Part shown: piece after piece, positions 65 through 31,960 of the stretch | Layout of the letters: the number at the start of each line of letters is the position of its first letter | How positions within the stretch are numbered: position 1 is the stretch's first letter | Assembly: GCA_964017235.1 (NCBI GenBank) | Contig: OZ024938.1 | Location: 45,978,332-46,042,331, forward strand | DNA: 64,000 nucleotides | Direction of reading: 5' to 3' | From: Sabellastarte sp. h YS-2021 | Lineage: Eukaryota > Annelida > Polychaeta > Sabellida > Sabellidae | The notes under the pieces: generated by a model | Databases searched by the model: none | Seen by the model: only the letters and a program-made list of their open reading frames with translations | Told to the model about the DNA's origin: nothing | Position numbers and translations under genes: made by a program

Positions 65-169
65 CTGTACACATCACAAGCAGTTGTTGGTTTGCTTATG
101 GTACAGGATAAAATATCTGGATCAACCCAAAATTTTTCTCTTGCCGACAGCGTGTGAACCGTCTCCATG
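65..169 (-). CDS. PstS-type receptor, exon 14 (last exon in window)
   Basis: Residues 634-668 plus two bases. KFWVDPDILSCTISKPTTAC followed by DVYS: FWVDPDIL replaces the usual LWTAPE.L, and DVYS is the conserved Asp-containing element of helix F. Acceptor tcgtttaag, donor CAG/gtaagc. The following exons (rest of the kinase-homology domain, coiled coil and expected cyclase) lie left of the window. Confidence 0.9.
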
Positions 170-3100
170 CTTAAACGAAAAGCCACTTAAAATGACTGAA
201 CCCATTAATTGTATGTACAGTTAAAATTACATTGATGGAAAACAGTGTGGTCATGATATTAAAGAGGGTATAATTCATTACAATAAATAATTTGAAAATG
301 TTTACATTGATAAATGTATACTTTATTTACGGTACAGGATAAACTTTATGAATCAGTCCAAAATTTTCATGTTATAGCCCTGTCGAAACTCAAAATAAAA
401 TCTTTTAAGAACTTTAACACATATGAAACCATTCCACTTGATAATGTTTCGCCATTGGCGATATTCATTACAGTTCAGTGTCTTATTCATTAAGGGTGCT
501 ACATTATGAAGGGGGCAGTATCAGAATTTGAACAACTTTATCAGTCTTCCATATATTTGTAATTACTTACTGATTTGCTGAACTTGATATCCTGAGCTTA
601 TGGTTATTCTGTGACTCTTGAAGTGAGAACAGTTCCCAGTCTGCTATCTTCACAGTCCATCTGCTGTCTATGTAACAGTTTGATGACGTCAGGGAGCCGT
701 GGACCAGACCTGAAATAAGAAAATAAAGGCTCAGCAACTAGCTACTGAATATTAAGTAAATAAAGTAAATTTATTATAAAGTTATAAACTTATATACAGT
801 AATTTCACAGCCATGAAATTTTGATACACTATTTTAAATAAATATTCAGAGGATTTCTGGTATTATTGGTAGTTATATTGATAAAGAATATTTATGTGAC
901 ATGTGGTTGCTTTACAGTTAAGTCTTCATCTGTGGCAAAATTATTGTTTTCAAACAACACTGTTAAACTGAAATTTGGGAAACATGTATTTGGACATATA
1001 TCTATCGTGCAAATTATGCATCAACAGGCCAATCAAAATTTGTAAAGAAGATATAAATACCTACAGTTGGAATACTTTAATATGGTTTTTACACTGTGAG
1101 CATTCTCACTTTAAAACAGAAAAAGATGAGTTCAATTTCTCATAAGCTTTTTTATCGAAGTAAAATATCGACTTGAATAATACAACAAAACTTCGCAACT
1201 GTTTTTATTTCCACTGTGTTGTTTATAAGGAAAAAAATACTACATTTACCTTGTTTGTGCAGAAACTCCATGCCTGAGGCCACATCCAAAGATATGGAAT
1301 ACTTGAAGTTGACATCCAGTTTGAATTTTTCATTTTGTAGTATATCACATAGTATTCCTGGAAATGAAGCAGTTGATAGTAGTAATATTAGTAGCAGTAG
1401 CAGCAGCTGTAGTAGTAGCAGTAGTAGTAGTAGTAGTGGTGCTAGTGGTGGTGGTAGTAATGGAAAGGAGCCATTATTATATAGATAAGTGGTGCTCCAT
1501 TATGTAAACTTAATGGCTTGAGGCCCAAAGGGCCGAAGGGTCATTAAGTTTACATAATGGAAGTGCCATGAGGCAATTATCTATTATAAAACCTTGTAAA
1601 TTAAAAGCAATTTATTAATTTAATAATTTAACACCTTGTACCAAATGATCAATCTAAACAATCTTTGCAATGTTTCCTTTGGTGCGCATACCATATGGGG
1701 CTTTCACTAAATTAGTTCTATGTTTTTTCTTATTTCAATACACAATCAACATTGTTTCACCATGTGCACCACTGGTTTTCCTTCATGGTAAAATATAATT
1801 TTGGATAAAGGTTGAAATGTTTTAATATAATCTGACTGCCACAAAGTTTAACCATGGATAATGATAATCGATAAAATATGGATCTGTGAATTACAGAAAG
1901 CACTTTCCAGAAAAAAATAGATTGGTCATTTAACAATGCTGTGGATAATTTGCTGTGGTGAGTGTTTCATCTTACTTTATTGATCTTTGCTTATTTTAAG
2001 ACAGTAAGCTATTGTTTTTGTGTTTCAGGCATTGAAAGTACTAGAAACTGGAGAATTACTTACTTGTTTCATTTTGTGTTGAAGTTTTTGGGTTTCTCAA
2101 GATTTTAATTTTGTGTTCTTCTTTGTCTCTTAATTTTGAATCAAGGAAAAATGCCTCCTGAAAAGATTGTTTCCTGGAAAAAAGCCTCATAGAATACCTA
2201 CTCCACATTTTGTATTTCAGAAATACCTCCTATGAAAATTAATCCATAACATTAAGAACAAAATTCATTTCAACCACAAACAGTGTATCATTTTAGATGT
2301 ATCTAACAAACTGTAATAAGGTAAATAAAAATCTTTGTTTTGAACTTAAAAACATTGAAACTTTAAATCAAATTAAAACCCAGCAGTAATGCATTTTAAT
2401 ACTGCATTTTTACACTATGTTTTTTTCTCATTTTACTTGAGTAAATTTTGAGCCACTAAAAACTCTTTTTAATACAGTATGCTGGGTTAGATTTTAACAG
2501 TGTGTTTGTTTGAAAGGTAGCTGCTCCTTTGATTAAGTTCACAGAAGATTATTGTAAAATCAGATTGTAAAGAAATGCAAAGAATTAAAAAATATCCAAC
2601 TTTATAAATTAAATTGTTTTTGTTTGTATTTGTCAGGAGGTATTTTTTCAAGGTAGCATTTTTCCATGAGGTATTTTTCTATGAACTCTGAATGTCATTC
2701 AGAATTGAAAAGACTTGTAAATGTACCCACTGAACTAATTAATGTGAAAGAAGTTGTGAAAACATTTCACTATTGAATGCATTGTGCTGGGGATGACTGG
2801 AAAATACCCTTTTGTGTTTGGCAGGCTGCCCATTGAACTAAAACACATTCCACTGTTAGAAAATAATGTAGTGTTAACTCTCCATTATGCAAAAAATAAT
2901 GGAGAGTTGAAACAATAGAAGGATCACCTGTCTGGGGTTTATAAAGTGAAGAGGTAGTGTCCAGTAAACCATGAGATGTGAAAAGGACTCAATTAACAGC
3001 AATAAATCAGGACACGTGTTCACTGTAAAATTTTAGTCATGCCTTGGGTTTAATATTTGCAGAAAATTATGTAAATTGGCCAAGACTTTTGGTGAATACA

Positions 3101-6100: not shown

Positions 6101-9100
6101 AGTTTATAGTACAGAATCTTGGCCATGTAGTATGTTGTGGTTTCCTCTGTCCTTAAAACTCTCCGTTATGATACAACCTGTACAATGCATTGAAAGCGAT
6201 GTTAGACCATAGTAAGTCAAATCAATTATAATTCTGTCTTCCTGTTTTGCCCCCCAAATTGGTTGTTAATCTTTCTACCATGTTAAACCATATGGAGTGT
6301 CAGTAAAGAAAACAACTTTGACATGTAATCACTTGGTACTCCACTTTACTTGTGTGGGGTCAAATCTAGCTAAGGACCATGACTTCAGCAGTTGAAAAGC
6401 ACATTAAAAAGTCTAACACTGACCTTGATCAAAAACAGCAAAAATAAACAGGAAACAAACTGATACAGACTGAGTATTCCAATATAGTCTATTATTATTA
6501 TGCATGTAATTCAGATATTATTGTTTGGCTTGGTGGAATAAATCACCAGTATATTGTTATGTGTATGAATTATCTCTTCCTCTTAATTCATACTTAAATA
6601 TAAGGAATTTATTTCATACAAAGCATGCTGTAAGTGTATCTTTTACAAAAGAAAATCTGGGCCCATATTCTATAGCATGCTTATTTTCAGAATCATGCTT
6701 AGAAGTTTCTAGGATAACAGCCAATTGAGAAAAAAATGCAGAGAATACCAAAATACAACTTCTAAGAATAGGAATTTTAAAATTCATGGGAATTTTTTTC
6801 CAATACTTGTAAAGGTAATAATGGCATATTGGATACAATAGTTGTATATAAACAAGTGACATGAATGTTTAGGTTATCACCATGCAGGTACAATATGTCG
6901 GAAAAAATGCATTGCAAATACATATTTTATTGAAATTTTGAAACATTCTTATTTTGTATTCTTTTCTTATTCTTTGACCTTTTCTTCAAAAAATGCATCT
7001 ATTCTAAAAAAAATTCTAATTCTAAGAATAGGAATTTTAGTAAATGTGGACTCTGGTCTCAGTAGCAGTGAATGTCTTGAAGGTTAAGGTCAATGTGAAC
7101 CTACCCTTATTACAGCATCCACTAACAAGGTAAACCTTGTCAGCCTTACAGGTCATGCCATAGAAGGCAAGCACATTCAAGTGGTGTATCTTGTCTCTGA
7201 ACATGAGGAGAGATTTTTTGGTTTGATGCTTCAGTTCATCAGGGGATTTAAGGTTGATCTGTCTTAAACAGACTTCGTGTTCATCATATAAAGCAAAGGT
7301 CATCATATTCTGCAGCCAGGCTTTGTTACTTCTATCAGAAGTATTAGAACTCCTAAATTAAAAGAACAACAAGAAAATAACAGTTATGCTGGTGAATGTC
7401 ACAGTTAGCAGCCGCTTGGACTAATGCAAAATTTACTACTGTAAAAGTGAGTACATTCCAGAGAGTTTATAAGGCCTCATGTATTGTCAACAGACTGAAT
7501 AGGTTCGGTCATGTGATACTTTTTTCAAATAAAGTACACTGGCTACCCATTGAGTACTGCATACTCTGTAAATACAACCTTTACACATATAGAATCTTAA
7601 CAAATCTCCAAATCGTTTGTGTTTTATCAAATCTAGTGAATTCACATGGGGTAACCATATTTCTATTTCTCGATCAGACTTAATGAAGGATGTGAGTGCA
7701 TAACTGCTCCTTCTGCACAGTAAACATTTTTGAGTTTTGCAAACATTTGAAAGGAAAATGTTTGGGGAAGGTTAAAAAATGATGGTTACGAAACCCATTT
7801 ATAATAGAATGATTTCAAAACATTTTATGTATACCATTTATTAAACGTTTAATGTCAAACGTTAGAAAAATGTTACAATATTATTTTGGCAACACTTAGC
7901 AATATTAACCTTAATTGGAGACAGAGGTCAAATTCAGGATCTTCTTCGGTTGCTCACTAATGAAAATATTATTTTTATATCTAAATTGTAAGATAGTGGC
8001 TTATAAATTGTGACCCCCATTCAATCCTTCTTTTAGGCATTGCATGTGGGGCAACTTTTGACAAAGTCCTCTAAAATCCCCTATTATTGTTCACCGCCAC
8101 CTATGTTTGGAAATGTTTGAAGGTAAGTGTTTTTAATAAGGATTCTGAAAGTATAGGTGTAAAAACGTTTGTGATAGAGTGTTTTCAAAATATTTGACAG
8201 AAAACATTTCAAAAAAGGATAAGTATGAAAACCAGTTACTATTAAATGTTTGTAAAACATTTTCAGAGCAAACATGTACAAAAGATTGTCCAGAAAATTT
8301 TTTTAAACGTTTCATGTCAAACATTTCCAGTATAACCTTCAGTTCTTCAGCTATTTTATAAATATTTTAAATGTTCCCAGTCAACCCTAGTTTATAGACT
8401 TATTTTTTGAACGTTCAATAAATGTTTTCCTCAAAAACGTTTGTATAGAGAATGTTTTACTTGGAAATGTTTAGTAACCCCCCAAAATAGGATTTAAATA
8501 GGATTTAAAAACGTTTTGCAAACGTTTAGAAACTTCGTCTAGCCATCAGAATCCAGGATGTCTACATCAATTCAGCACTTTCCAAATAATACATTTATTA
8601 TTATTATTATTGTGATCACTATTATTATTACCATTAAACTAGGACTATAAAGTGCAGGAATTATGTATATATAAGAAATATGACACACTGGAACGAGAAG
8701 GTAGAATCTTATATAATGTTTCAGCTATCGAAGTACCTGTTTATGCAAAACTTAAGGCAGTAGTAAAAATGGCTTACTTTCTCGATGGTGCATTGGTTCC
8801 CAAGGAGCTACATTGTCCTTTAGACCCAAGACTGACAACAGACTTCATGGACACCACAGACTTGACTCGGTTATGAATGGACAAAAGCTTCACTTTGATT
8901 TCAGGAATTAAGTATTCTTTCCTCCAGATTGACCTGTTGAATTTGATTTGTTGCCAAACTGTAAAAAAACAATCTTGTGAGCCTTTTAGAATATACATAT
9001 TTATGTATATTTATTCGGGATAGGTTGGTATAAAAAATGTGTACATTGGGAGGTCGCCAATGCAAAACCGTATCGATTTTGGGACTGCCCATTTTAGTGC

Positions 9101-12100: not shown

Positions 12101-15100
12101 TCATACCATTCATATTCGCCTACACCATTAAAGGTAATGCCTTGGATATCAATTTTATGTGTAATTATTGAAATATGTGGGTCAGGTTACAGCACTACTA
12201 ATCATAGTAATTACAAACTACTCCTGCGAGTTTTTCTTTTATTAAAAGTGTCCAATATCTTTCATTATTGGTATTTTCATTATTGCACTCAGTGATTATG
12301 ACCATAAATGGAAACCATTTTTCACACATTTCTAAAGAAACCCTTATACATTTTGCAAAATAAAAATTATCATAAACCCCCCAAAATACATACCAGAAAT
12401 ATAGAAATGAAGAATAATAATGTTAAACAACATCTTAAGAATTACACATTAGGGAAGAGGTGCAATTTAAATAGGTTAATAGCCTCGTAAGTGTCCAGTA
12501 TTAGAAAATAATGGATTGTTGATGGGATCCCTTCGGTACCTCATAAACAAGCCACTGTTTTCTCATATTGGACACAGTTATACTTAACATGTATATATTG
12601 CCCAAACAATTAAAGTACAGGTGACAAAAATGATGAATGTTGGTAGTAGCCACCCTGTTCACCATACCTTTTGTGCAGGGCTATACCTTGTACCTTGTAT
12701 TCTTAATTGACTTTTTTTGTTTCTTTTGGAAGCTCCTCAGTAGAAGCATAGGCTTAAACTGATGACACCAATGGATAATTCTCTGCAGATTATGTCTATC
12801 GTTTATATGAAAACAGTAAGCATTACTACACTGTTGCTTCAGCTTGAAATCCACAAGTAAGAGTAGATAAGAAGTAAGTCCGGAGAAATATGAATTGGAA
12901 AGTGGTAAATATAATACAAGAGCATCCAAAGTATGTTAGCGGAGCAATAACTAGCTAATATTTAGTCCTAAGTCTTCCAAAAAGATTGGCCTTTTTACGC
13001 CAATACGCCAAACCACAAATATTAAGTAATATCGACCCTTGCTTTCTGCCAGATGAACAGTTCAGATGCAAATTGGCCTTAAAGGTCCATTTTACTGCAT
13101 TTACAAGTTATTTACCTGAGAATGATATCATTGCTATGAGCAGTAAGAAGACAATGGGTGAAGCTATATACACAGGTAATCTCCAGGTTTGAGTGGAGAT
13201 GAGTTCTCTCCTCTTTTGGTCTTTCACCAGTTGTTTGACGGACTTGTCACCCTCACATACCATAATGGACAAGACATCATTCAGGACTTTGTCAGCTACA
13301 GATGTACTACGAAATGACACAAAATAAAGATGAGTCAGCTGAATTTAAGTGTTTTTATTGTCATATTTATTGCACTGTGTCCCCCTGTTGTCATTCATGT
13401 CATCCCCATTTGTTTCATCAGCCAGAATATCAAATCTATTTGACAGGCAGGGAGTATGGACACAGTGACCTTTGGCCTGGGAAAGTGCAGTATTGACATT
13501 CATACCCACCTTGGAAGAGGTAACGAATTAGGCATTTGCAATTCTTTGTCTCATAGTGATGACATGGGACAGAATGACAAGCTTTTGCTGCGGGCCAAGA
13601 GAAGTTGTTCGAATCGTCTAAAAAGAAATGAGGTCAGTTTAACATTGCATCCTTCGAATTTTGATCTTTTTCTTCTCTGATAGCTCTGCAAAACCCTGCC
13701 AACCATTGTTCCATCGTAAGTTGGTTGTAAGTGACCCTTTCTTTGGAATTTCCTGCCAGCACTTACTTGTTCGGCCATTTAACATAATTTTTTTAAAAGT
13801 ACTTCAACCGAACCGCCTCTCTGAGATTTCAATTTTGAAGGCATACCTGTGTGATTGAGTTGCTGCAGTTCCATTATTCTATCTTCAACCAACTGTTGAA
13901 TGAATGCATTCTGTCACAAGTTCTCAAAATTCGGCAAGTATCCAGTATTAAATACTGTAGTGTATGTACTACAGTAGAACCTCCGAACTATCCAAACCCC
14001 ATGGGAGACATACAATCCGGTCGGATAATCAAGGGGTTCAGATAGATGAAGGAAACCGAAATTCACCGTCTATGGGTTACCGAGTGGGTGATAATTGAAG
14101 AATTGCCTTTTTTATGCAATAAACATAGACATTGGTGGTCGTTAATAAAATAATTCAATATATTTGTGTCATATAATATAAGTGTACCTTCAATTGTAAC
14201 TTATTTACTCCATATCCATGGATGTTATTATTTTCATTTAAAATATTACGCAGACTTGAGCTGGTTGTGTTTGGTTGGTACTTGCATTGTTGACATTTTA
14301 ATTTTAGATTAACATCGTCCCACATTTTGTCAATTGAAAAACTCCGGGAGATTATTTATTGTAAAACCCCAAGCGAACATGCCTTCAGTGATACGTGTGT
14401 TTGGTAATGCATTGTTGACGTCTTTTCTTTTCTACACGTTGTCAGAGTGTGAACCTACTCCGGGAGATTATAAATTGCGAAACCCAATCGAACACACTTT
14501 AATTGATTAGCGCATTATCAAAGAAGTTGTGTAGCGGGGTCGTGTAATTGAATTAATCTCTCCCCTATTGTAACAATGGTGATAAAGATGAAAGAAGTTA
14601 GGCGTTTCTGTGAATGGTACGTTTTATAAAGCCCTGGAATTCATTGTTTCCGAGACTGTAAAAAATCTTGTATTATCGCTCACGCTAGACTGCATTATAT
14701 GTAGGGAGACACGATTTCAGTTCGGTTAATCTGGAGATTCGGATAATAGAAGGCCGGATAATCGAGGTTCTACTGTACCTTTCTTAGGGCTTGCAGATGA
14801 GTGAATACAAGCTTGAGTACTTTGTTTATGTTTACCAGTACCTTCGGAGAGAGTACCCACACCAGTACTTTTGACCTTGGTTTTATCGCTTAACATTTGC
14901 CTTTTTAAAATTGTCTCGTCTGTTTTCAATAACCTGGAGTTGATCTAAATTTTTTTTCAGTAATAAGGCTTTCTGATGGCAAACCAGAGGCCACATGAGC
15001 AGAAGTGCTGGGACTATCTGGCTTCAAGCGGTGAAACGAACGTGTATGGGTACCCGCGTCGTCACTATCTGTGTGGCCTACTACCCCACTACACTACAGT

Positions 15101-18100: not shown

Positions 18101-21100
18101 AGTTAGTTCATCAACATATACAAGAAGAAGCCGGAAATGTGGTTGCTAAGGTGGATATTGTTTAGCAACTATATAGAAATCAATTGTGTATATTTTGTAT
18201 GATCACTAGTTCCACCATGGAAATGATTGTACGGACACCAGTAATTTGTACAAAAAAGAGAACAGAAATGATAAACTATGTCACTCTTACTTTCAATTAT
18301 CCTTTTTTCGGTATTTGAATCACTGGGTTCTACATCATCAGAGATTTGGCATAATGACCATGAAAAATAACCCTCGTATGTAGTGATTATTGTCTTTTTG
18401 CATGGAGCATTGCTTTATCGTAATGAAGATTAATGACTTGGGGATAAATTAGAGAAGGTGCCACAGCGCAACACAGCACTTGGGCAGGTACCAGGCCTCA
18501 GAAAAAGTGACAGTGATACACAGATCTTCAAAAGGACAACAATAGCCCTTGATGTAGGCAATGAATGCATTAACAAGAAGGTAATCAGCAGTCTAGGGAT
18601 AATTAAGGCTAATGAGATACTAGTATTCTCACCTAAGTGAGAAATACACACGTAAAGAAAATTACAAGCATTTCAAGCTCATTTGCAATTGTTTTGATTT
18701 TAAAAATATGATAATTTTAATACATTATCACATTTGTTTGGGGTACAAATGTCCATTACGCTTGTACTTTGGGGTATATATATACCAGTCTAACTTCTTG
18801 AATTTCTTATTCCAATGACTTTACTTCAGAAAATGCGACAAAATAGCTGTAGACAATATTGGCACCTGTCATTAAATGCTGTTGATTTCTTTTCCATGGC
18901 AGCCTGTACATTATCTGCAGTAGGGCTCACTGCATGGCCTGCTTTGTTGACAACGCTTGCATATGTCAAGCCTGCTGCTACAGCATCAGCAACAGACAGA
19001 TAACCAATCTACAAGTTATAAGAGGAATGTGTTGTGTCTTAATCAGTCTAAGCCCAACTTAATCTATAAGTTATAAGATGTGTGGTACTGTGTGTAGTAT
19101 AATGTCCTAGAAATTCTTCTGATAAAAAGTGGGTGATATTGTGTAGTATCATGTCACACACTTTCATCTAGTCATAGAATGTGATGATAGTAGGTCTTTA
19201 TCTGTGTCCTGACTAATCTAGAAGTCATCATAGTTTCATGGTATTGTGTGGCATCATATTGCACAATTTCTTCTAATCATAAGATGTAGACAATATTAGA
19301 GTCTGAATCATTTATGCCTGTTCAACAGCCAGGGTCATATTGGGACAGGTCATCAGCTAAAATAATGGCATTTTGGAGCATATTTAGTGATACAGAAAGA
19401 GTATTTAAAGACAATTACAAGTTTCAAAAGATAGAAGAAAACTTACCGAGTACTTGAAGGTCAGGATTAGACCAGACATACCAACTGTTCCCTTGCCAAA
19501 TAAAGATATTGTTTGGCTATTCCAAATGGAATGTCTGAAATAGCCATAGCAACAACACTCCACATTAAATATATGTTTATCACCATTATCTGATTTAACA
19601 GTTTGCATTGTAAATGGTATATAATTATAAAACCTATCTCTGAAATCACTGCAATGTACAATCCATCATAACATAATCTTACATCTCCAGGCACAACTGA
19701 CTATGGATAATTAGCCAACAGATTCGTCATCACGTGCCATATTTCAATCAGTATGCACACATACAAATATACTATACTTCTGCTTGTTTTTCTTGCCTTC
19801 AAATGCATGCAGAAATGCATGTGAAATTTTAAGTTAGAAATTGAAATTCTAATGTACACTTGTGCCCACACATATGACAGCCTTTTTGTAATATTTCTTC
19901 AAATACAGACTTATTTTACGTATTATACAAGCCACATGAACACATCTTTATGGATTGGTTTCATATTGGAAGGGTCTGATCAAAGGAAGAAGTGAAGAAA
20001 CTTTGGGAAAGCTTCCAGATCATGTTTTGGATATAAAGGAATTCAGAATATACATTATGGGGATATTCAGCTGCCTTTGCAGAGGTCTGCGCTCTAACAG
20101 TGCTTTCTAGTTTGCACGTGCATCTCTAGTGAAGTTTTTAAATTAAATTTTCACTATGTTATCTTTGTACAGTATTATACTTGTACTAACAGTTTTGTAC
20201 AATCTCAACAAGTTATAGAAAGGATCTAAGGTTAAAATTTATTTTTATTTCATTTTCAAGGAACCAAGCATAAAAGTCGGTCTTGGAAGATAAAAATTAC
20301 TATAAAATGCAATAAATGTTCAGGGCCGGGATTCACAAAAGGTCTTAAGTCTTAGGCAATGTTTTTGCTTAGGCCAGTCTTAAAGTTATGACTTTTGTCT
20401 TAGCTAAGATTTCTCTTAAATTGGGATTCACAAAAAGTGCTTAGGAAACTCTTAGCTGAGACAAAATTTGTGCCAAAAGTTTTAACTACTTTGAATTCAA
20501 ATTAACAAATTTTAGTAAAACAAAAACATTTTTCATTGATAAATACACAAAACATTCTCTTCAAAATTATAAAAGAAATTTGTTACTTTTTTTATAAAAT
20601 TATGTAAAAATAGTAGTCTTTGTGTTTTATTATGAGTCAGCCATTTTTATGACAATATTTTTACCACAAGAAGGTAAAATGTGGAAATTTATAGGTAATT
20701 AAATGATGTAAATTTCTCTTACAATCCACAAAAATTATTTCTATAGGAAGTATAGATCCCCATAGTACATATGTTGTTTTCATAACAAAGGGTAAAATGT
20801 AAATAGATGCAATAGAATATTTTAAAAATGACTTAAGTCTACCCTGCAGTGGTCTTAAAGTTATGACAAATTCTAAGACAATTTTTTGTCTAAGACCTTT
20901 TGTGAATCCCATTTTGTCTAAGCAAAAACAAGTCTTAACTTTATGACAAAATTCTTGCGCAGTTAAGACTTTTCTCTTAAAGTTATGACAATTTTTTGAC
21001 CTTTTGTGAATCCCGGCCCTGGGTTTCCATTATCCCACATTAGCACAGTGCATAAGGTGGTGGAAAGAATGCACCTGTTCAATGCATTAAAGACATTACG

Positions 21101-24100
21101 GACAAGATAATTTAGTAATTACAATATGTACAAATGCCATACATTCAGTTAAATGACGTACTCACTTCCCATTATCATCTACTCCTTGACTGAAGTAGCC
21201 ATATGTGTCTTCCCACAATGGACTGAATGAACTAAGAGTCTTTGTAAAGATTTCTGTGGTTCCTGTCAATGTATAGGGTGAATAGGCTAGTCACTGTAAC
21301 TACAATCAATGGCTGAAATTATCTTTTTAAAGGCTCCACCACACTACTCCGGTCAACAAGAAGAGTGGGAATTTTCGGGTCAACATACATCATTTACAGG
21401 GTAATTTTTTCTTGTGTTCTCTTGGACTGATCTGCATCTGAGTATATGGCGATGCACAAATTATTTTCTTGAAAATGTTTTCTCAAAACCAACATTTTGG
21501 ACATGTTTTCAGATCTGTTATGATACTTTTCTAAAAACGATAGACTATATGAATAATGTGTATCCAATAGAGTAAAAAAATAATATTTAAAGCATCATAG
21601 TATAATGTATTCAAAGTTTATTCCAGGTTTAACACTCCCCATGTCCATTTGTACATGATCTAGATCTAACCATTTGCATCCAAATCTTGTTGAAATCTCA
21701 CTACACAGACTTGTGATCTCGAAGACTTTAACATTTTTAATGAATGTGGTGGCTTTTAGTGTTGGCACTGAAACCAGCCAGTTATATAGATCTGACGTCA
21801 CAAGGACTCGGAAGAATGTAATCCCATTTTAAAACTGGTGTATGTGAGGGAAGCCAAGCAGAGAAGTCTGACCACAACTTAAGCTAAAAGAAGAGGATGC
21901 ATAATGAGGAAAAAATAAGATGCACTTTGGAAAGATCCAGTCAAGTTTGTTACAAAACAAAATATTTGAGTTGCAAATATCACTAAAAAGCTTAATTTAA
22001 TAAAACATTCGAAACTTCGCCGTTTAGACTTTAGACTATTGATCTCAACAGCCAATGAATGGCCATTTCATGATGGCTTTATAACTACATACTAAAGTCA
22101 CCCTTATATTGTCTAACTACTGTGGCTTTAGTGCTTGGTGTGCTCATAAGACAAAACAAAATTTCCAATGTTTTATGTTTAAGTGTGAACTCTATTTAAG
22201 GCTTGTACTTCTAGAGATCACTTTATTTTGTCACCGAACTTTCTGGAAAAATGACCTTCCTTTACTAAAGGAGGCTTCATGATGTCGGTGCCCTATTGAT
22301 GGTTTTGTGACTCATGCCTGTAGATCAAAAGATTTTTTGACCAATTAAATTCTATATTACACAACAAAAGTACAGCAATCCAATTATAATATATGGTACA
22401 TCTATTAGTTTGATCAGCAAAACTCAGAAAAGTCTTCTTTCCAAGATAAAAGTAAAACAACAGGCATTGTATATATCAGATTATTTAAATCTTTCATAAA
22501 AAGGGTGTTGACATTAAACCCAAACTTAACTAAACCACGGAAATCTCCTAAGTAATCTAATTCAAATTACAATATTCTACTCACATCATATTGAGCCAGT
22601 TCTCACCTGACTTGTCTGACCTAGCAAATACATCTATGGCTTGGTCTGGTAAAGTTATATCTGGATTTAGTTCTTGTAAACGTGAATCATTCCACATGCT
22701 GTATGTTCCATTGTATATACCCACTATCAAGTCACGTGACAGTACCAAGTCCTCAATGCCAGGCAGGTTAAAGGCCAAAACCACTGCACTTTGAACATAA
22801 AACCAAATAATGTCTACATTAAAGTTTATGATCTAAGACATTGGTAATAATTCAGTTGGTCCAGTGATAAAATTCCGGAAAAAAATTCAAAATTACTCAA
22901 TTGCTACGTTTAAACTAGGTATAAATCATAGCCTTGTCAATATAACAAAGGTGTCATTTAGTTTTAAATCTTGACATTTTATAGATTATAAAAGTAGATT
23001 TATACTTTCTGCCTGAAAATGTTTATCAAAGTTTAAAATTTTCTCTTTTTAGTGGCTTCTAACAATTTATCTTATATCTCCCAACTAGAGATTTTGTTTT
23101 TCACAGGAGTTGATTTCGTAAGCAATTTTTGGTGACCACAAACTGTAAGAACATCTTTAATTCACCAAATACAAGTTTCTGAAGTTTATATCTACAGAAG
23201 TATATGCACCTACCCAGCCATGGTTGGAAACATTTGGAGGTCTGGATAAGCTTCATACTCTGAATCTTTGAGGGTTGAATCAGACCCAGCATAGTCTATT
23301 TCTAAATCTTCTATTGGCTGGAAAGACAGTTCATTTAATTGGATTCAGTATAAGACATATAATTTTGGAAAGCTTCAAAATACCTTGTTGAATACTACAA
23401 TTACGTTTGTGTGGTTAATATATAGATAAGAGAGAAAGAGAGGTTGACTACTGAGTGCAAGGTAGCCAGGATTATACCTAAGAAAATCATACAAACTGGT
23501 TGATGCCTATGGGGGCTAGGCAGTGTAATTTGAATATCCAAGATAGCTCAAGCCTTCTGCGTCTGGCTGTGTTGGATGGGTCAAATTTTGGTGTACACCA
23601 CTCCAGCACTGAGAACTTCATGTCCTTGTGGCTGTGCCCATTACTTTTAAAGTGACGGGATACTGGGGTGATTTGTCCATCTTTTTGTACTGAGACTTTA
23701 TGCTCATACATTCTTTTTCTAAATGCCCTACCGGTTTCACCCACGTAGTGTTTGTGGCATTTCTTACAAGATATCAAATATATGACATTGTTTAATTCAC
23801 AGGTTATGTGTTTAGGTAAGTCCTTGGTTTGGTGGGACTTGTGTGTGAAGTTACATTTGACTGTATTGATTTTGTTGATCAAGGGGCAGTAGGTACATTT
23901 GCCCAGTCTTGTGCAAATGGTAGGTTTCGGGTCATTTTTGTCCGAGTGTGATTGGGGGTATACTATAGCGGCATTGGTTAGCATGTCTCTTAGGTTTGGG
24001 AGCCTTCTGAACCCAATGATAGGTTTGTCTTTGAATAGTGTCCCACAGTCTGGGCTGTTATTAATGATATTCCAATTGTTGTGAATGATCTGTTTGATGT

Positions 24101-27100: not shown

Positions 27101-30100
27101 TTTAAGTCTACTTGTTCTTGAATATATAAGAGGTCTTCAGTGGCTTGGTGGTTGGAAAGTTTGACATCTAATCTCAGACTGTCACCATTTGTGTGGGTTT
27201 GACTCCCACAAGAAACAATGATAAGCGTTTAGCCCAATAAACCTGCCCTGATGACCCTGACTGTTGAACGGGAGGCAGAATCATAATTTTGAATATGGTA
27301 AACCCAATTATGTTCCATAATCAAATGACCTTAGTGAAAGATAAGGTGGTTTGCATGTCAAACATCATTATTAGATTCAAAAAGAAAAAAAAATCGCTTT
27401 TATGGTTAGTAATTGCTTATGGCTTTATGACGTTTCACCTTTTCCAAATTAAATACACCAAAAATAACCAGCCTATAAGCTTTAGCAAATTATTAGAAAA
27501 TACTACGAAGAAAGTAATAGTAATACATTGTTCTGCTTTTGTCTTCAGCAAATGCAGGGGATCCTATTCTGTCATTTATTCTCAATGAATGTGGCTAGGG
27601 AGAAACTAAAAGAGCATAATATGTGTTATTTAGTTATATTTATATACACCTTCAAGTTATGCCAAAAACCTGACCTTTCTGATTTCCTTGGCTAGTGAAT
27701 GGGGCATTCACCCCAACTTTGTGAGTTATCACCTTTTTGATGTATCACTTCTATCAGTAGGACTGAATTTTGACCAACAGGTTCATAAGGGTCTGTCCCC
27801 ACTATGACCCCAGCTGATGACGGGGGGAGTGGGGGCGTAAACCCCTAGTTTGACTTCTGCAACAATTTCATCAAGCCCTCAACCCACTTTTCCTTCTTTT
27901 ACCTTGTACCAGTGCTCAAAACACATGAAAGAGATATGAAAGACAAATCCGAAGCCCACTTTGAAAATCAGTTCTTGCTACCGATGTTTCCAATGAAAAC
28001 ATAATCTACTTGGAACCATCTACTTGAACTATTGTGCATTCTGAAGTAGTAAATGGTCACACTTCAATAGCAGTGTCCTTTGTGAAAAAAAAACAGATCA
28101 GCTGTAGTGTTTTAATTTGGTACAAGGCCTTAATGCAAACAAGTCGGCAGACCTGTGGTTCTGGGCATGTGGTTGGTACAGCCAATATTGCTGTAGTAAT
28201 AGAATAAATTTGTCAAGTCCTGACAACAGATAGTACCATATTCTCTGTCTTGGCGCAGTCAGCATTTATTGGTGCCTTAAGTTCCACTTACTATGAAATA
28301 TGTTTGTGACATTTGCAGATGATGGCTTTTTCTTGAATGTCTTCCCATCGGAGTTCATAGAAGGCTCTTAGACTGTTTTAGTTCTCCAATTTACGTTGCA
28401 TGACATTCCGTTATTGGTATCAAGCCACTTGAAATGTGATGTTCCTTTTGAGGTAAGTGGCATGTAACAAAGCCATGATAGGGGTCTGTAGTGACAATAC
28501 ACTTAGAGAATATTTTCACTATGTCCACACATAATAGTAAGTGAAGGCCAAACCAATGGACGATAATCAGATGATGTACAGGGTTTCAGGTTCCTGTTTT
28601 TGGAGTCAATGTCTTTTATTGTTTTATTGATTGACCAGCTCAGTTGCCAACATCACATTGAGATATCATCCAGGGTTCACATGTATCTTAAAGCCAGGTC
28701 ACAGTGTGGCGACTTTTAGTGGCGAATATGCACGATCCTGAAATTCTTCCCTGTTGGTAGCATATTCTTGGTCCATCTTCACTGTTCTCCACCATTCTCC
28801 ATGGATCGTCATCTAGCTACGACAGTTTCAAACTGTTCAAAACTATCGCCGGTATTCGCCGATTCGTGGCCATTTTTTAGTTCGCCATTAGAATTCGCCA
28901 CTATTGGTAGCAGATTCTTCTACATCGTAGCTCTGTGGTAGGACATTCTCCAGCAAATCGTACTACCTTCTTGTTCTCAGTAAATTCGCCAAATATTCTT
29001 CCTTGTTCTCAACTGGTTCTTCCTTTGTCGTACAAGATTCCTCAAGTATCGCATTCATTCTCCCCTACTTGTAGCTGATTCGTGGGTAAATTCGCCAGAT
29101 ATCTTCACCAGTTCGTAGGGTATTCTTTGTATATTCGAAAGGTATCGTAGAACATCGTAGAGGGGTCGTAGAAGTGTGAAGATCTTTTATCACATGACTA
29201 CACTTTGGGTTTTATTTTTTTCTGCTTTACTGTGTAACAGTTTGAGGCTTATCAGTCCAAATAGACATTCTATAATAGTTTATAGTCTTATGATTCAAAT
29301 GTATCACATATAAGTAATTTATTATAAAGCCACCTGCCTACAGGGACTGGCTGTGTAGCTAAACATGTAGTAATCTGCATTACTAATAACGCATATGGAG
29401 GTGAGCATAGTAATCCACTTTACCTGGCTAAACCATATGTTTTAGGCAACCAAAATGTGCATATATCACACGTGTAAAACATCTTGTTTATGCATGTGAC
29501 CATGTGCATGTGCCCAACATACAACCATGCAATGAGACACCTTTTTTGTGATCTAATCTTTGTGACTCATGTTTTTATTTAATTAGTTTTATCCACTTAA
29601 AACATCATTAGACAATTAGTCTTATTAACTTTGCCTTGGGCTAATTTATTGCTTCTATGTGCATATGCTATATGTAGAAATAGCCAAATACATTGTGAAT
29701 GTGAAAGTAATCAAAATAAGACTAATAAATATCAACCAACACAAAATGGAAAAAATAGGTATCACCACTGCGACAGAAAAACCTCCTAGACAGCCTTGCA
29801 GCTTTTTATTTAACATCCCTCTTAACACTTATGATTAATCCCTGCTGTGGATTAGAATCCTACTTATTTCAATGTGTGGGATATACTAAGATATGGGCCC
29901 AGTTATTGTAACAGACATATACCACTAAACTTGCAACAATGAATGATTTTCATATCTAAAAACTGTTGCAAAAAAAATTATTTTGTTACCTGCTGGATCC
30001 TACGTTTCCCGCTACCACTTCCCACTGCTTCATACGTCAATTCTACATCAACAAATGGCTGCCGTAGCACTGAGTAACTTCTCATCCAGGATTTATAGAC

Positions 30101-30217
30101 CTCACTTGGAAATGTGGCCCCAGCTCCCCGCACTGACACTATGGGTTCTCCATGACAACAAATTGCCAGAATTACATGCAAAAGGGCCAGTATAGTTTGA
30201 CTGCCAGGTGGAGACAT
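65..30217 (-). CDS. Receptor guanylate cyclase-like protein with PstS-type ectodomain (gene span, 14 exons, 3' end outside window)
   Basis: Fourteen exons join with matching phases and GT-AG introns to 2006 coding bases (668 residues plus two bases); the gene continues past base 1. Domain order: signal peptide (about 1-23), PstS-like type II periplasmic-binding domain (about 25-375), one membrane helix (about 388-407), basic Ser/Thr-rich juxtamembrane part (409-480), kinase-homology domain (about 481 to beyond 668). The ectodomain keeps GAGATF (31-36), YAGSD (85-89) and RSDKSGTT (167-174), the phosphate-cradle motifs of PstS. The kinase part matches receptor guanylate cyclases (KGG..CDIL, HGSLTSSNC, DVYS) and lacks catalytic residues. 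By family logic a dimerisation helix and a class III cyclase domain should follow. Inference: a surface receptor making cGMP in response to phosphate or a similar ligand. Alternative: a pseudokinase receptor without a cyclase domain, which this window cannot exclude. Confidence 0.88.
571..709 (-). CDS. PstS-type receptor, exon 13 (pseudo-catalytic loop)
   Basis: Residues 588-633 plus two bases. HGSLTSSNCYIDSRWTVKIA followed by DWE. The HRD motif is HGS with no catalytic Asp, and DFG is DWE (611-613), so this is a pseudokinase of the guanylate cyclase type (usual form HGNLKSSNC...DYG). Acceptor ttatttcag; donor CA/gtaagt. Confidence 0.94.
1250..1357 (-). CDS. PstS-type receptor, exon 12
   Basis: Residues 552-587 plus one base. 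ILCDILQNEKFKLDVNFKYS followed by ISLDVASGMEFLHKQ: this is the conserved helix D/E block (LQDIL.NE...LDW.F.YS...D...GM.FLH) of receptor guanylate cyclases. Acceptor catttccag, directly beside a trinucleotide microsatellite; donor AAG/gtaaat. Confidence 0.93.
1385..1466 (+). repeat. (AGT/AGC)n microsatellite beside exon 12
   Basis: Runs of AGT, AGC and GGT. On the receptor's strand this is an ACT/GCT tract ending about 28 nt before the exon 12 acceptor. Confidence 0.95.
1482..2938 (+). repeat. 1.46-kb dispersed repeat, copy A
   Basis: Shares its whole length with 24523-25975, with scattered substitutions and indels. Near its left end is an inverted repeat (CTCCATTATGTAAACTTAATGG and its complement at 1535-1561); near the right end AACTCTCCATTAT..ATAATGGAGAGTT. 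No coding frame is seen. Probably a non-autonomous element of unknown class. Confidence 0.8.
3340..3930 (+). repeat. Diverged segmental duplication, copy 1
   Basis: Shares blocks in the same order with 4360-5330, for example TTCCAAATAACC..GAGGGTACATTA, GCTTTTAAGA.TTTCTATAAC and TTTGAATTGATTTGGG. Confidence 0.7.
4360..5330 (+). repeat. Diverged segmental duplication, copy 2 (interrupted by a MITE)
   Basis: Aligns with 3340-3930 on both sides of the inverted-repeat element at 4488-4929; the element is absent from copy 1. Confidence 0.7.
4488..4929. mobile_element. MITE with CAGGGCTGGTATTCAC-type ends
   Basis: Left end CAGGGCTGGTATTCACAAAA; the right end is its imperfect complement (..ATTAATACCAGCCCAG). 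The interior is rich in inverted CTCAAACTCA/TGAGTTTGAG motifs. Inserted into segmental copy 2. Confidence 0.75.
5985..6230 (+). mobile_element. SINE, diverged
   Basis: B box GGTTCGAACCC, GGGGAAGTTGGTGACTG, tail TTGAAAGCGATGTTAGACC. Diverged relative of the element at 11500. In receptor intron 11. Confidence 0.75.
7105..7352 (-). CDS. PstS-type receptor, exon 11 (kinase-homology N-lobe)
   Basis: Residues 469-551 plus one base. TFALYDEHEVCLRQINLK (487-504) is the beta-3 strand; the invariant ATP-binding Lys is Arg here (R499). LLMFRDKIHHLNVLAFYGMT and VYLVSGCCNKG match the helix C/hinge region of guanylate cyclase kinase-homology domains. Acceptor taatttag; donor AGG/gtaggt. Confidence 0.92.
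7396..7730 (+). mobile_element. LINE reverse-transcriptase C-terminal fragment
   Basis: The frame contains FSNKVHWLPIEYCILCKYNL, close to the common LINE motif L..LHWLPI..RI.YK. It is preceded by a segment resembling the VQN.AARLV helix. Truncated on both sides, inside receptor intron 10. Confidence 0.5.
7720..8540. repeat. AAACGTTT/AAACATTTT-rich repeat region
   Basis: Many copies of (A)AACGTTT and AAATGTTT in both orientations, plus the string CCCTATTATTGTTCACCGCC shared with the MITEs at 55 and 56 kb. Probably another MITE family member; ends not defined. Confidence 0.5.
8778..8958 (-). CDS. PstS-type receptor, exon 10 (juxtamembrane segment)
   Basis: Residues 409-468 plus two bases. WQQIKFNRSIWRKEYLIPEI resembles the Trp-containing juxtamembrane motif before the kinase domain of receptor guanylate cyclases. 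Then come clustered Ser/Thr with Gly/Lys (VVSMKSVVSLGSKGQCSSLG), similar in position and composition to the phosphorylated cluster of natriuretic-peptide receptors. Acceptor tttttacag; donor AA/gtaagc. A recent tandem duplication starts 24 bp upstream of the exon. Confidence 0.88.
8982..9798 (+). repeat. Tandem duplication, copy 1 (817 bp)
   Basis: Repeated head to tail by 9799-10614. By eye only about three differences: a T/A near 9010, T/C at about 9080, and one T in a homopolymer near 9615. It includes a tRNA-like SINE head (about 9560-9660). It begins 24 bp upstream of exon 10 of the receptor (minus-strand sense). Confidence 0.95.
9799..10614 (+). repeat. Tandem duplication, copy 2 (816 bp)
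   Basis: Near-identical direct copy of 8982-9798. The bases CCTT occur at both copy starts and just past the end of copy 2, a microhomology that could have mediated unequal exchange or replication slippage. Confidence 0.95.
11041..11445 (+). mobile_element. SINE split by a nested SINE
   Basis: Head TTGCCTTGTGGGTAAGCAGG, B box GGTTTGACTCCCACA, then the nested copy, then the tail GACCCTGACTGTTGAACGGG. The uninterrupted relative at 27128-27275 confirms the arrangement. Confidence 0.82.
11132..11364 (-). mobile_element. tRNA-derived SINE, reverse orientation, nested
   Basis: Complement shows the tRNA-like head (B box GGTTCGAATC). Flanked by CAAAGAACAAT at 11121-11131 and 11365-11375. Inserted inside an older SINE (11041-11445). 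Confidence 0.88.
11500..11730 (+). mobile_element. tRNA-derived SINE, full length with 13-bp TSD
   Basis: Pol III A box (TGGCAGAGTGG) and B box (GGTTCTATTCC) near the head; tail GAAAGCGACGTAAAACCCC. Flanked by TCAAGTATCACTG at 11487-11499 and 11731-11743, an exact target-site duplication, so this is a recent insertion. Confidence 0.92.
13116..13306 (-). CDS. PstS-type receptor, exon 9 (end of ectodomain, membrane helix)
   Basis: Residues 345-408 plus one base. STSVADKVLNDVLSIMVCEG completes the PstS C-terminal helix. A charged stalk (KQLVKDQKRRELISTQ) leads to the only internal hydrophobic helix, LPVYIASPIVFLLLIAMISF (388-407). Acceptor tttcgtag; donor CAG/gtaaat. The single helix and the N-terminal signal peptide imply a type I receptor. 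Confidence 0.92.
13972..14775. mobile_element. Tigger/pogo-like non-autonomous element, 804 bp
   Basis: Ends CAGTAGAACCTC and its complement GAGGTTCTACTG, flanked by TA on both sides (13970-13971 and 14776-14777). Subterminal GGATAATC motifs recur. TIR sequence and TA target fit the pogo/Tigger group of Tc1-mariner. No transposase frame. In receptor intron 8. Confidence 0.75.
15480..15700 (+). mobile_element. SINE, diverged
   Basis: GCATAATGGTAACACACTC head, B box AGTTCGAATCC, CCTCAAGTGGGGAAGCTG, GTACAGGACC. In receptor intron 8. Confidence 0.75.
15927..15998 (-). CDS. PstS-type receptor, exon 8
   Basis: Residues 321-344 plus two bases. YIEWFSSDEDAHAQCSRLQM followed by VPL: the last long helix of PstS (FFDWA.....A) and its Y.PLP element. 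C340-region Cys and the Cys in exon 7 could pair. Acceptor gattacag; donor GAG/gtaatg. Confidence 0.87.
16408..16429 (+). repeat. (AAT)n microsatellite
   Basis: Seven to eight AAT units, in receptor intron 7. Confidence 0.95.
16512..16631 (-). CDS. PstS-type receptor, exon 7
   Basis: Residues 281-320 plus two bases. It contains FTVDLVDASGDYSYPISSYT and then YMVLRMDSFTDC, corresponding to the WPI.S.T.I.. strand of PstS. Acceptor ttttgcag; donor CAG/gtcagt. Confidence 0.9.
17263..17395 (+). repeat. Direct repeat, copy 1
   Basis: About 130 bp (GAAATATTTTATTCTCCATT through TGTCAAAATAGGTACTG) repeated at 17846-17970 with about six differences, in receptor intron 6. Confidence 0.9.
17846..17970 (+). 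repeat. Direct repeat, copy 2
   Basis: Copy of 17263-17395; spacing about 580 bp. Confidence 0.9.
18866..19008 (-). CDS. PstS-type receptor, exon 6
   Basis: Residues 234-280 plus two bases. It begins IGYLSVADAVAAGLTYASV, the counterpart of the IGYVE..YA helix of PstS, followed by KAGHAVSPTADNVQAAM, matching the usual GK.V.P..E....A segment. Acceptor cttgtag; donor CAG/gtgcca. Confidence 0.9.
19318..19365 (-). mobile_element. SINE tail fragment
   Basis: GTTCAACAGCCAGGGTCATA matches the tail of the SINE at 42755. In receptor intron 5. Confidence 0.55.
19447..19534 (-). CDS. PstS-type receptor, exon 5
   Basis: Residues 204-233. Acceptor gctatttcag, donor TCG/gtaagt, phase 0 at the end. LFGKGTVGMSGLILTFKYS matches the GKGN-G stretch of PstS that runs into the IGY strand coded by the next exon. 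This acceptor is the one that fits the incoming phase; an in-frame reading continues upstream, so the exact start is slightly less certain. Confidence 0.83.
20321..21021. mobile_element. MITE, 701 bp, with perfect 24-bp terminal inverted repeats
   Basis: Starts CAGGGCCGGGATTCACAAAA and ends with its complement. The interior holds many copies of TCTTAA, TTAAAGTTATGAC and related motifs in both orientations. In receptor intron 4. Confidence 0.85.
21166..21262 (-). CDS. PstS-type receptor, exon 4
   Basis: Residues 172-203 plus two bases. The split codon at its start completes SGTTEIFTKTL, so the Arg/Ser/Gly/Thr phosphate cradle is intact (R167, S171, G172, T173). Acceptor ttgacag; donor AA/gtgagt. 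Confidence 0.9.
22607..22788 (-). CDS. PstS-type receptor, exon 3 (core of ligand domain)
   Basis: Residues 111-171 plus one base. The acceptor is the AAG at 22791-22789, not the nearer CAG at 22786-22784, because only the AAG keeps frame with exon 2 (giving MAGAVVLAFNLPG). It contains FNLPGIEDLVLS, VGIYNGTYSMWND and LNPDITLPDQ, then ARSDKS, all in PstS order. Donor CAG/gtgaga, phase 1. Confidence 0.92.
23214..23317 (-). CDS. PstS-type receptor, exon 2
   Basis: Residues 77-110 plus two bases. Acceptor tttccag; donor GG/gtaggt, phase 2. It contains EIDYAGSDSTL (82-92), equivalent to the FGASD loop of PstS whose Asp binds phosphate (D89 here), and FPTMAG leading into the next strand. Confidence 0.9.
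23470..24290 (-). mobile_element. Penelope-like retroelement, 3' fragment with GIY-YIG endonuclease
   Basis: An intact 250-codon frame (24239-23487). Its C-terminal half reads VIYLISCKKCHKHYVGETGR followed by AFRKRMYEHK, the GIY-YIG nuclease signature of Penelope-like elements. Upstream it has the CTYCPLI cysteine motif typical of the linker between reverse transcriptase and endonuclease. The reverse transcriptase itself is absent, so the copy is 5'-truncated, as is common for these elements. It sits in intron 1 of the PstS-type receptor in the same orientation. The lack of stops suggests a fairly young insertion. Confidence 0.85.
24523..25975 (+). repeat. 1.46-kb dispersed repeat, copy B
   Basis: Same orientation and same internal hairpins as copy A, in intron 1 of the same receptor gene. 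It lies just upstream (minus-strand sense) of the Penelope fragment. Confidence 0.8.
26178..26770. mobile_element. MITE-like element with CTGTTCCA ends
   Basis: Left end GGCCTGTTCCACTTTTGGG, right end the complement of GGGGCTGTTCCATTTCTGTG. The interior is full of TAAGAT, TTCC(C/A)AATAG and GGTTTAC motifs. In receptor intron 1. Confidence 0.6.
27128..27275 (+). mobile_element. SINE (same subfamily as 11041)
   Basis: GTGGCTTGGTGGTTGGAAAG head, GGGTTTGACTCCCACA B box, tail CCCTGACTGTTGAACGGGA. In receptor intron 1. Confidence 0.8.
28690..29190. repeat. Motif-dense ATTCGCC / ATTCTTC / TCGTAG region
   Basis: Short words (TTCGCCA, ATTCTTC, TCGTA, GGTAGCA) recur dozens of times in varied order. 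It opens with GTCACAGTGTGGCGACTTTT and ends in repeated ATCGTAGAA. No open frame. Probably a degenerate MITE or foldback element. Confidence 0.55.
29990..30217 (-). CDS. PstS-type receptor, exon 1 (signal peptide, start of ligand domain)
   Basis: Residues 1-76, phase 0 at the end, donor CAG/gtaaca. The start is the first Met of an open frame directly before a hydrophobic stretch (SQTILALLHVILAICC), a clear signal peptide with likely cleavage near residue 23. It is followed by GAGATFPSEVYKSW (31-44), the hallmark N-terminus of mature PstS proteins, and EAVGSGSGK (63-71), the second phosphate-contact loop. Intron 1 is 6.7 kb, the longest in the gene. Confidence 0.92.
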
Positions 30218-30889
30218 TTCATTAACTGGTTACACTATTTATAGTATCCTGGTAGCAATCTGGTGAGAATGATAAAACAAAGCACTTCTGTTTGCTGATG
30301 ACATTGTGATATTTCTTTTATGATAAGCTTCTGTTGATTTTCTTATATTTTTTAACCCACGTGCTGATATATGTTAGTGGTCCTGTCAGTTAAAGAACGT
30401 AACTGTTGATCTTCCAGCTGTAACAGATGCAAAAAAAAACAAAAAAACAAATCAAATACCACTAATAAGAATTTTTATCTTGTTTAACTACCTAGCATAC
30501 AAATCTGGGACCTAAAATATTTGGTCGGTTTCATCTTCCCAACAGGACATAGTACATCCCAGCGTTGTCTGGATCAAGATGCTGACCTGACTTCGGATTG
30601 GGATGATTTTCTTCAGGACAAGATGGAAACTATCAGACAAGCCACATCAAGCCCCATATAGACAAACAGACAGGACTAGAGCATTTTACTGACAAACTCC
30701 AACTAGACTGATTAATTTCTGGAGTCGGGATCGAGAGTCGGGATCGAACCCACCCTCTGGCTCCTGTAAATCATCTTTTGTCACTGTAAATATGCCAGCT
30801 CTACATCAGACTTTCTACAGAGGCTTAGGGAACTTTTGTTCTTATTGAGTTTAATATTTTGATTTTCATTATGATTTATAAACAGAAAA
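30218..30889. other. Upstream region of the PstS-type receptor
   Basis: Should hold the promoter and 5' UTR. I see no TATA element, CpG-rich stretch or other convincing site. Confidence 0.4.
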
Positions 30890-31960
30890 GGACGCATCTG
30901 AACCCAGAACCAGCACCTGCCATACAACCAGTACCACAGCCCCGGCCAGCCCCCAGGAAAAGAAGAAAGCCACCAAACCCATGGGTCATACCATAGATAC
31001 TTCAAATACAAAAAAAGGATACCACAGCTACCTTCTGACTGACTTAATACCCACTGATATCTCAGGATACCAGAATTTTGTTATGATACCACCTGCCTTT
31101 TTTGATCTCATCAAAGAACACATACACTACCACATCAAGAAGTCAATCACAAATTTCAGGGAGCCCTTGGAAGTTGGATTGGAACTGGGAATAACACTGA
31201 GACACCTGGCAACAGGACAGACCTACACCCCCTTGCAGTATCACTGGCTGGTTGGCCGAACCACGATATGTAAATTTGTCCCCCCAGGTCTGCTTAGCCA
31301 TCCTTGCTGAATTTCATATATTCCACAAATATTTGTGCTACCTTATTGACCCTGAAGACTGTAAAAAGGTGGAGTGGAAGTTCAGAACCAGATGGTATGT
31401 CTCCAACACTCCTGGGGCACTAGACGGGAAGCATATTGCCATGAAGAAGCCAAAGAAATGAGGCAGTGACTATTACAACTAAAGGGCTTCTTTCCCTGGG
31501 TGCTACTAGCCCTGGTCGATGCAGAATACAGATTCCTGTTGATGGATTGTGGGTCCAGTGGATCTTCATCAGATGCACAGATCAAGGATGGCACTTTGGG
31601 TTTTCTGGCACCTGAACTACTGGGGGAGGGAGGGCCAGATTTACACTATTTCTTCCTGGGTGACGCGCATTTGCCTTGATGCCATAAATAGTGAAAGCCT
31701 ACAGCAGAGGCCAACTCACAAGGGAAGAAAGAATAGCCAACTACAGGATCTCCAGAGGCTGGAGGGTGGTGGGGAATATGTTTAGGATATTAGTGAGCAG
31801 AATCAGGGTATTATTTGGCACCATGGAGCAAAGACCAAGGGTTGTCAGAGACTTGTGTGTTGTTGCACCACATGCTTAGGACACACCAGGGCACAGCAGA
31901 CAGGGCACCAACTCAACCAAATGATGTAGCGGTTCTATGAAATGAACAGGTGGTGTATGT
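30890..31960 (+). pseudogene. Decayed PIF/Harbinger (HARBI1-like) transposase
   Basis: Conserved pieces of the DDE nuclease lie in shifting frames. A segment at 31252-31461 ends in GALDGKHIAMKKPKK, the first-Asp block. At about 31485-31670 FFPWVLLALVDAEYRFLLMD and then SSSDAQI hold the second-Asp block. At 31690-31880 REERIANYRISRGWRVVGNM and LFGTMEQRP match the C-terminal LTREER.. and RRVVENAFG block. A stop and several frameshifts separate them, so no active enzyme is coded. No terminal inverted repeats were identified with confidence. Confidence 0.8.

Follow-up and report, generated by a model that had tools for sequence, protein, structure and literature searches.

A receptor gene with a PstS-type ectodomain

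The stretch analysed here, 64,000 nucleotides of contig OZ024938.1 from the annelid Sabellastarte sp. (the window), carries on its minus strand part of a gene for a membrane receptor. Fourteen exons, running from 30217 to 65, join into 2006 nt that are free of stop codons and encode a 668-residue partial protein; all 13 introns are GT...AG, the phases agree at every join, and a GT donor follows exon 14. From the N to the C terminus the protein comprises a signal peptide (approximately residues 1–23), a full-length PstS ectodomain (approximately residues 27–351), a single strong membrane helix (approximately residues 388–410) and a kinase-homology domain of the receptor guanylate cyclase type that leaves the window, with the signal peptide and helix placed by hydropathy only. 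An original prediction, made from the letters of the window, had proposed these fourteen phase-matched exons, and their coordinates proved exact as judged by splice sites, phase, the stop-free join and tblastn; its domain order is likewise borne out by Pfam, matches to PDB sequences and hydropathy. When ten database relatives were compared with the whole window by tblastn, collinear minus-strand matches were obtained for 12 of the 14 exons, and at E ≤ 1e-3 no match indicating a second gene copy appeared outside the exons anywhere in the 64 kb. An Rfam scan of the window gave 0 matches at the gathering score.

Exon 1 (29990..30217; this and all following exons on the minus strand) holds the ATG, the signal peptide and the start of the PstS domain (residues 1–76), with GAGATFP corresponding to T10 and F11 of PstS and GSGSG to S38; it was located by tblastn with P0001, P0002, P0121 and P0131 (P numbers denote database proteins), together with a splice and residue check. 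The domain continues through exons 2 (23214..23317; AGSD, with D56), 3 (22607..22788; FARSDKSG, with R135, D137 and S139), 4 (21166..21262; TTEIFT, including T141), 5 (19447..19534), 6 (18866..19008) and 7 (16512..16631), all found by tblastn. The codon of G140 is divided between exons 3 and 4, and exon 7 contributes the first Cys of a pair kept in relatives. The domain ends in exon 8 (15927..15998; tblastn with P0017, P0018 and P0022), and the second conserved Cys, the stalk and the transmembrane helix lie in exon 9 (13116..13306; tblastn). Exon 10 (8778..8958), the weakest of the set, encodes the intracellular juxtamembrane segment and was placed by splice sites, phase and local alignment. 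We consider it supported because its omission breaks the frame and because the alignment continues from exon 9 (window QQIKFNRSIWRKEYLI, Owenia QQYKLNQALWKEEWKI), with scores of 61 against P0001 (Owenia) and 77 against P0022.

The kinase-homology domain begins with its N lobe in exon 11 (7105..7352; Pfam, PDB-sequence match and tblastn), followed by the hinge and next helix in exon 12 (1250..1357; Pfam and tblastn) and the pseudo-catalytic loop in exon 13 (571..709; PDB-sequence match and tblastn). Exon 14 (65..169; splice sites, phase and alignment) is the final exon in the window, the gene running past position 1; its alignments with P0022 and P0007 continue from exon 13 through the last residue of the window. 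Pfam PK_Tyr_Ser-Thr matches this part of the protein at 4.5e-20, and the top match among PDB sequences is atrial natriuretic peptide (ANP) receptor 1 (4.5e-16). At the HRDLKxxN position the window reads HGSLTSSN, without the catalytic Asp of HRD, a replacement that we take to be the one found in receptor cyclases. The window protein has the extracellular domain, single membrane helix and kinase-homology domain that mark a receptor guanylate cyclase.

The ectodomain was assigned to the PstS fold by several profiles, as the original prediction had proposed. Pfam PBP_like_2 (PF12849) matches residues 28–330 at 3.3e-23, with 83.2 bits against a cut-off of 27, and the NCBI PstS equivalog model TIGR00975 is passed narrowly, at 207.3 bits against 205, over model positions 1–311 of 315. 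Among relatives, Haliotis P0002 scores 213.1 on this model, above the cut-off, and Owenia P0001 203.4, just below it. The window falls short of the narrower PstS model NF008171 (160.2 against 339 bits). The top match among PDB sequences is a phosphate-binding PstS (5.1e-39, residues 28–349). When the window protein and eight relatives were scanned against Pfam, PBP_like_2 was present, and neither ANF_receptor (PF01094) nor the NIT domain (PF08376) was reported. Finally, the window is identical to E. coli PstS at all nine checked positions, T10, F11, S38, D56, R135, D137, S139, G140 and T141, which we take to be the phosphate-contact residues of that protein.

Relatives and known receptor cyclases

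Across three protein searches, at least 42 distinct database proteins carry PF12849, PF07714 and PF00211 together in their precomputed Pfam annotation; in these the class III cyclase that the original prediction expected downstream, and that here lies beyond the window, follows the kinase part in intact or decayed form. The first search supplied 29 proteins with the full set among the best 120 of 855 matches, the second 14 among 27 matches (nine of them new), and the third four new ones among 78 matches. The joining of ectodomain to helix and kinase part recurs in many relatives predicted as single polypeptides, mostly gene models, which contradicts the refuting case named in the original prediction, of transcripts that leave these parts unjoined. 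An HNOBA domain, also envisaged downstream, was not reported by Pfam in eight relatives at E ≤ 1e-3. A few long relatives (P0127, P0132 and P0133) are without a Pfam cyclase call.

The proteins with the full set come from at least 19 named species of three phyla, so that the architecture is conserved among lophotrochozoans, where the original prediction had suggested looking for it. They include the annelids Owenia and Paralvinella, the nemertean Lineus and sixteen that we take to be molluscs: Haliotis rubra, Haliotis asinina, Littorina, Batillaria, Patella, Gigantopelta, Babylonia, Liolophura, Solemya, Ruditapes, Sinanodonta, Pinctada, Ylistrum, Argopecten, Nucella and Dreissena. Among the matches listed, no named animal outside annelids, molluscs and nemerteans has the full set; absence outside Lophotrochozoa cannot be concluded from this, because the protein searches were word-limited and each scored only about 8000 candidates, the second lacking relatives that the first had found. 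Database labels range from 'atrial natriuretic peptide receptor', 'speract receptor' and 'retinal guanylyl cyclase' to 'receptor-type guanylate cyclase gcy', 'guanylate cyclase' and hypothetical protein, so that the family lies filed under natriuretic peptide or speract receptors. The combination of PstS, kinase and cyclase domains is a real and conserved receptor family, and apparently an undescribed one. No description of a PstS-type receptor cyclase appeared in the text excerpts of the matches listed from open PubMed Central, a source with most subscription papers and all preprints outside it; this agrees with the view, expressed in the original prediction, that no animal receptor of such a kind had been described.

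We compared the family with the standard domain order of receptor cyclases, as given in a published account (PMC5225109). The window shares with GC-A/NPR1-type cyclases the single-pass topology and a kinase-homology domain without the catalytic Asp, and its relatives share with them, beyond the window, the signalling helix and class III cyclase. In contrast, the ectodomain of GC-A/NPR1-type cyclases is a type I ANF-receptor, whereas here it is a type II PstS fold, and the mollusc branches of the PstS receptors have lost cyclase residues. A structure search with Owenia P0001 returned GC-A intracellular chains as top matches, at 36–39% identity. Its cyclase domain alone is closely matched, with a template modelling (TM) score by target of 0.92 and 58% identity; the predicted two-domain intracellular arrangement superposes poorly on GC-A (TM by target 0.43–0.45), which may be an error of the model, given its predicted TM score (pTM) of 0.42. 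Compared with bacterial PstS, the window has a full-length domain that passes the TIGR00975 cut-off and all nine checked ligand residues, but it is the membrane-anchored receptor domain of an intron-bearing animal gene and is only about 33% identical to E. coli PstS. The closest precedent is provided by the NIT-domain guanylate cyclases of animals, for which lateral transfer into an existing receptor has been suggested (PMC7400543). As described there, these too place an otherwise bacterial sensor domain on an ANP-receptor-type cyclase of animals; however, that domain is a helical nitrate/nitrite domain between two membrane helices, unrelated to PstS in fold and ligand.

Phosphate as the probable ligand and cGMP as the proposed output

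Taken together, we favour, with a probability of about 0.7, the reading that the gene specifies a lophotrochozoan receptor guanylate cyclase with a PstS-type ectodomain, which would be a true receptor for extracellular phosphate (or a near anion), signalling through cyclic GMP (cGMP) in the window's branch. The closure of PstS on phosphate and the signal relay of receptor cyclases serve as models for the proposed chain. Binding of inorganic phosphate, arsenate or a similar anion in the cleft would close the two lobes, which would alter the dimer geometry of the ectodomain and membrane helix. The signal would then run via the pseudokinase and signalling helix to the cyclase domain, presumed to be encoded just left of the window, and cGMP would rise or fall. 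According to a review (PMC12256581), the sensing of extracellular phosphate by animals is incompletely understood, with PiT transporters, FGFR1 and the calcium-sensing receptor as candidates. A complete PstS site on a receptor, if this reading is true, would be a direct and testable phosphate sensor, with relevance to marine chemosensing, to shell and skeleton formation and to nutrition.

The binding site strongly suggests phosphate as the ligand. Conservation was counted on 51 receptor-type rows, including the window, from a 63-row alignment from which 12 rows were excluded (E. coli, P0039, both P0034 domains and P0134–P0141). Arg135 and Gly140 are kept in 51/51 rows, Ser139 in 49/51 and Asp137 in 47/51, and position 141 is Thr in 47 and Ser in four of the 51. 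Of the rows spanning the N-terminal part, 27/27 have Ser38, 27/28 Asp56 and 23/24 Phe11, and position 10 is Thr in 2/24 and Ser in 22/24. Over the 24 full-length rows, the nine contact columns have a conservation of 0.97, compared to 0.61 across the 297 columns of the domain, a value that none of 100000 random draws of nine columns reached; five of the nine columns are invariant, and position 141, which varies most, ranks 72nd. The same receptor might nevertheless serve another ligand, its cleft binding phosphonate, pyrophosphate, a nucleotide or sulfate, or its ectodomain acting as a peptide-binding or dimerising scaffold like the type I fold in natriuretic peptide receptors. Ligand sites do drift in captured domains, and a few relatives show changes here (D137 to E or G in 4/51 rows, S139 to A in 2/51, D56 to E in 1/28 and F11 to I in 1/24). 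We regard this as unlikely, given that the window retains every one of the nine residues and that their positions are on average more conserved than the rest of the domain, and work on PstS indicates that Asp56 disfavours sulfate.

The state of the cyclase was assessed in 60 proteins, 38 of which gave a usable cyclase alignment. Both metal Asp residues, Glu, Cys, Asn and Arg are all kept in nine of the 38, namely Owenia P0001, Lineus P0007, Paralvinella P0029 and P0131, P0016, P0020, P0022, P0030 and P0033; the cyclase of P0015 is nearly intact, and that of P0011 is cut short. P0142 and P0144 have the metal motifs in truncated sequences, and P0143 and P0145 are degenerate. In the AlphaFold model of Haliotis rubra P0002 (mean predicted local distance difference test score, pLDDT, 79.7), the strands and helices of the cyclase region are ordered much as in an intact one, to about residue 938. 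In a tree on the first 720 residues, to which short rows contribute cyclase columns, all nine intact relatives fall on the window's side. The tree was then repeated without the cyclase columns, on ectodomain, membrane and kinase parts, and agrees: the window belongs to a supported 10-row set (95/86) whose members are intact, partly intact or unscored only, with no degenerate row, and stands beside P0022 and P0030, both intact, although its pairing with P0022 is weak (99/31). On this tree the degenerate rows need two changes, and 36% of the 200 bootstrap trees explain them by one; the cyclase may have decayed once or more than once.

Several observations weigh against a phosphate receptor that signals through cGMP. 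The window terminates within the kinase-homology domain, so the cyclase exons lie beyond it, and exons 10 and 14 gave no tblastn match from the ten relatives at E ≤ 1e-3. Affinity cannot be read from the conservation of ligand residues, and a micromolar-type PstS site would saturate at the phosphate concentrations typical of body fluids; the receptor would therefore have to face sea water or have an altered affinity. At least one cyclase residue, and mostly several, is missing in 27 of the 38 aligned relatives (P0024 and P0128 among them only partly covered), so cGMP output is not required of the family. Furthermore, a tree of the ectodomain only, with fewer animal rows, did not recover the split between intact and degenerate members and placed the window outside a 97/92 set that mixes the two, with no particular link to intact members.

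These last points bear on whether the window's receptor is itself a pseudocyclase as in molluscs, that is, a phosphate-binding decoy, a clearance receptor or a heterodimer partner without cyclase activity of its own. None of the 22 named mollusc rows, some of them near duplicates of one another (the two Dreissena entries, for example), keeps the catalytic set. Among the five named rows from annelids or nemerteans it is kept in four, and Paralvinella P0125, the remaining one, could not be usefully aligned in the cyclase. For the window we think a pseudocyclase improbable, since the tree without cyclase columns puts it in the 10-row set free of degenerate members. In the mollusc-containing branches, the lost residues mean that the receptor could not carry out the cGMP step alone and would have to act as a pseudoenzyme, perhaps in the role of a decoy, a scaffold or a partner, making them a case of a receptor that retains its ligand site while the enzyme residues are lost. 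The tie to cGMP drawn in the original prediction accordingly stands as plausible for the window's branch, judging from its intact cyclases, and does not extend to the 22 named mollusc rows. An artefact, whether a contaminant, a pseudogene or unrelated exons that splice together by chance, is highly improbable: the human DING/HPBP phosphate-binding proteins, a type II fold reported from eukaryotic samples, are a known caution on bacterial contamination, but contamination or a DING-type false positive is ruled out by the introns, their phase and the many independent assemblies, and the relatives refute an artefact for the family.

Origin of the PstS module and other features of the window

In a tree of 61 PstS domains, 22 eukaryotic or probably eukaryotic rows form one clade (100/100), nested inside PstS rows of Chloroflexota with a joint branch of 98/90. 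The 'domain swap' of the original prediction is better described as the use of a bacterial-type PstS module that also occurs on other eukaryotic proteins. Members of the clade share its ectodomain with the animal receptors but differ in their effectors: a class C seven-helix receptor in the fungus Calcarisporiella thermophila (P0136), a phosphodiesterase in Tetraselmis chui (P0139), Ephrin_rec_like in Palpitomonas (P0135), a cyclase in P0137 and, after two PstS domains, a GC-A-like juxtamembrane part in P0034. The ligand residues are largely kept in these proteins.

A Chloroflexota donor is a lead, not a result, because the search pattern skewed the choice of bacterial sequences: loci were picked by patterns from an alignment that included P0039, which is already a Chloroflexota-like PstS, and of the 80 loci 35 entered the tree. 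The first protein search, which was without this pattern bias, had 82 bacterial-type rows (P0039–P0120) among the best 120 of 855 matches; four of those listed were named by organism, all Anaerolineales, and its length limit of at least 367 residues for the window query omitted shorter PstS proteins. With these reservations, we tentatively raise, at slightly less than even odds, a wider scenario in which the animal proteins belong to an unrecognised, eukaryote-wide class of extracellular phosphate receptors. Such a class would have been built once from a Chloroflexota-like PstS and then joined to varied outputs, including the lophotrochozoan guanylate cyclases, the fungal class C seven-helix receptor, the green-algal phosphodiesterase and the cyclase of P0137. 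Animals would have kept the phosphate site, and early copies would have lost cyclase activity, giving rise to conserved branches of pseudocyclases, to which every mollusc member seen belongs.

Several of these proteins are of interest in their own right. The fungal P0136 carries its PstS ectodomain on a class C receptor (7tm_3, 4.5e-41; PBP_like_2, 5.4e-27), and P0139, from the green alga Tetraselmis chui, combines a PstS domain with a cyclic-nucleotide phosphodiesterase (PDEase_I, 3.8e-58). P0034 represents a second architecture of the same kind, in which two tandem PstS domains and a membrane helix are joined to a GC-A-like segment covering the juxtamembrane part and N lobe; its C terminus gives weak matches to the animal relatives (set of 7, best 0.00033), and the best PDB match of this C terminus is ANP receptor 1 (6.7e-5). 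In P0146, of 1360 residues, a PstS domain occurs with a precomputed PF00644, presumably the PARP catalytic domain.

The window also contains traces of mobile elements and repeats. Within intron 1, a 250-codon open frame on the minus strand (23487–24239) has a GIY-YIG nuclease domain (1.4e-6) and is probably the remnant of a Penelope-type retroelement. Just upstream of exon 1, two overlapping open frames on the plus strand (30882–31458; GALDGKHIAMKKPKK) have no Pfam match at 0.01; to us they resemble Harbinger-type transposases. Intron 9 contains an 827-base block duplicated in tandem (8979–9805 and 9796–10621) with 99.4% identity, and copies of an interspersed repeat of about 1.5 kb lie in intron 11 (1487–2942) and intron 1 (24538–25984), with 82.5% identity to each other.
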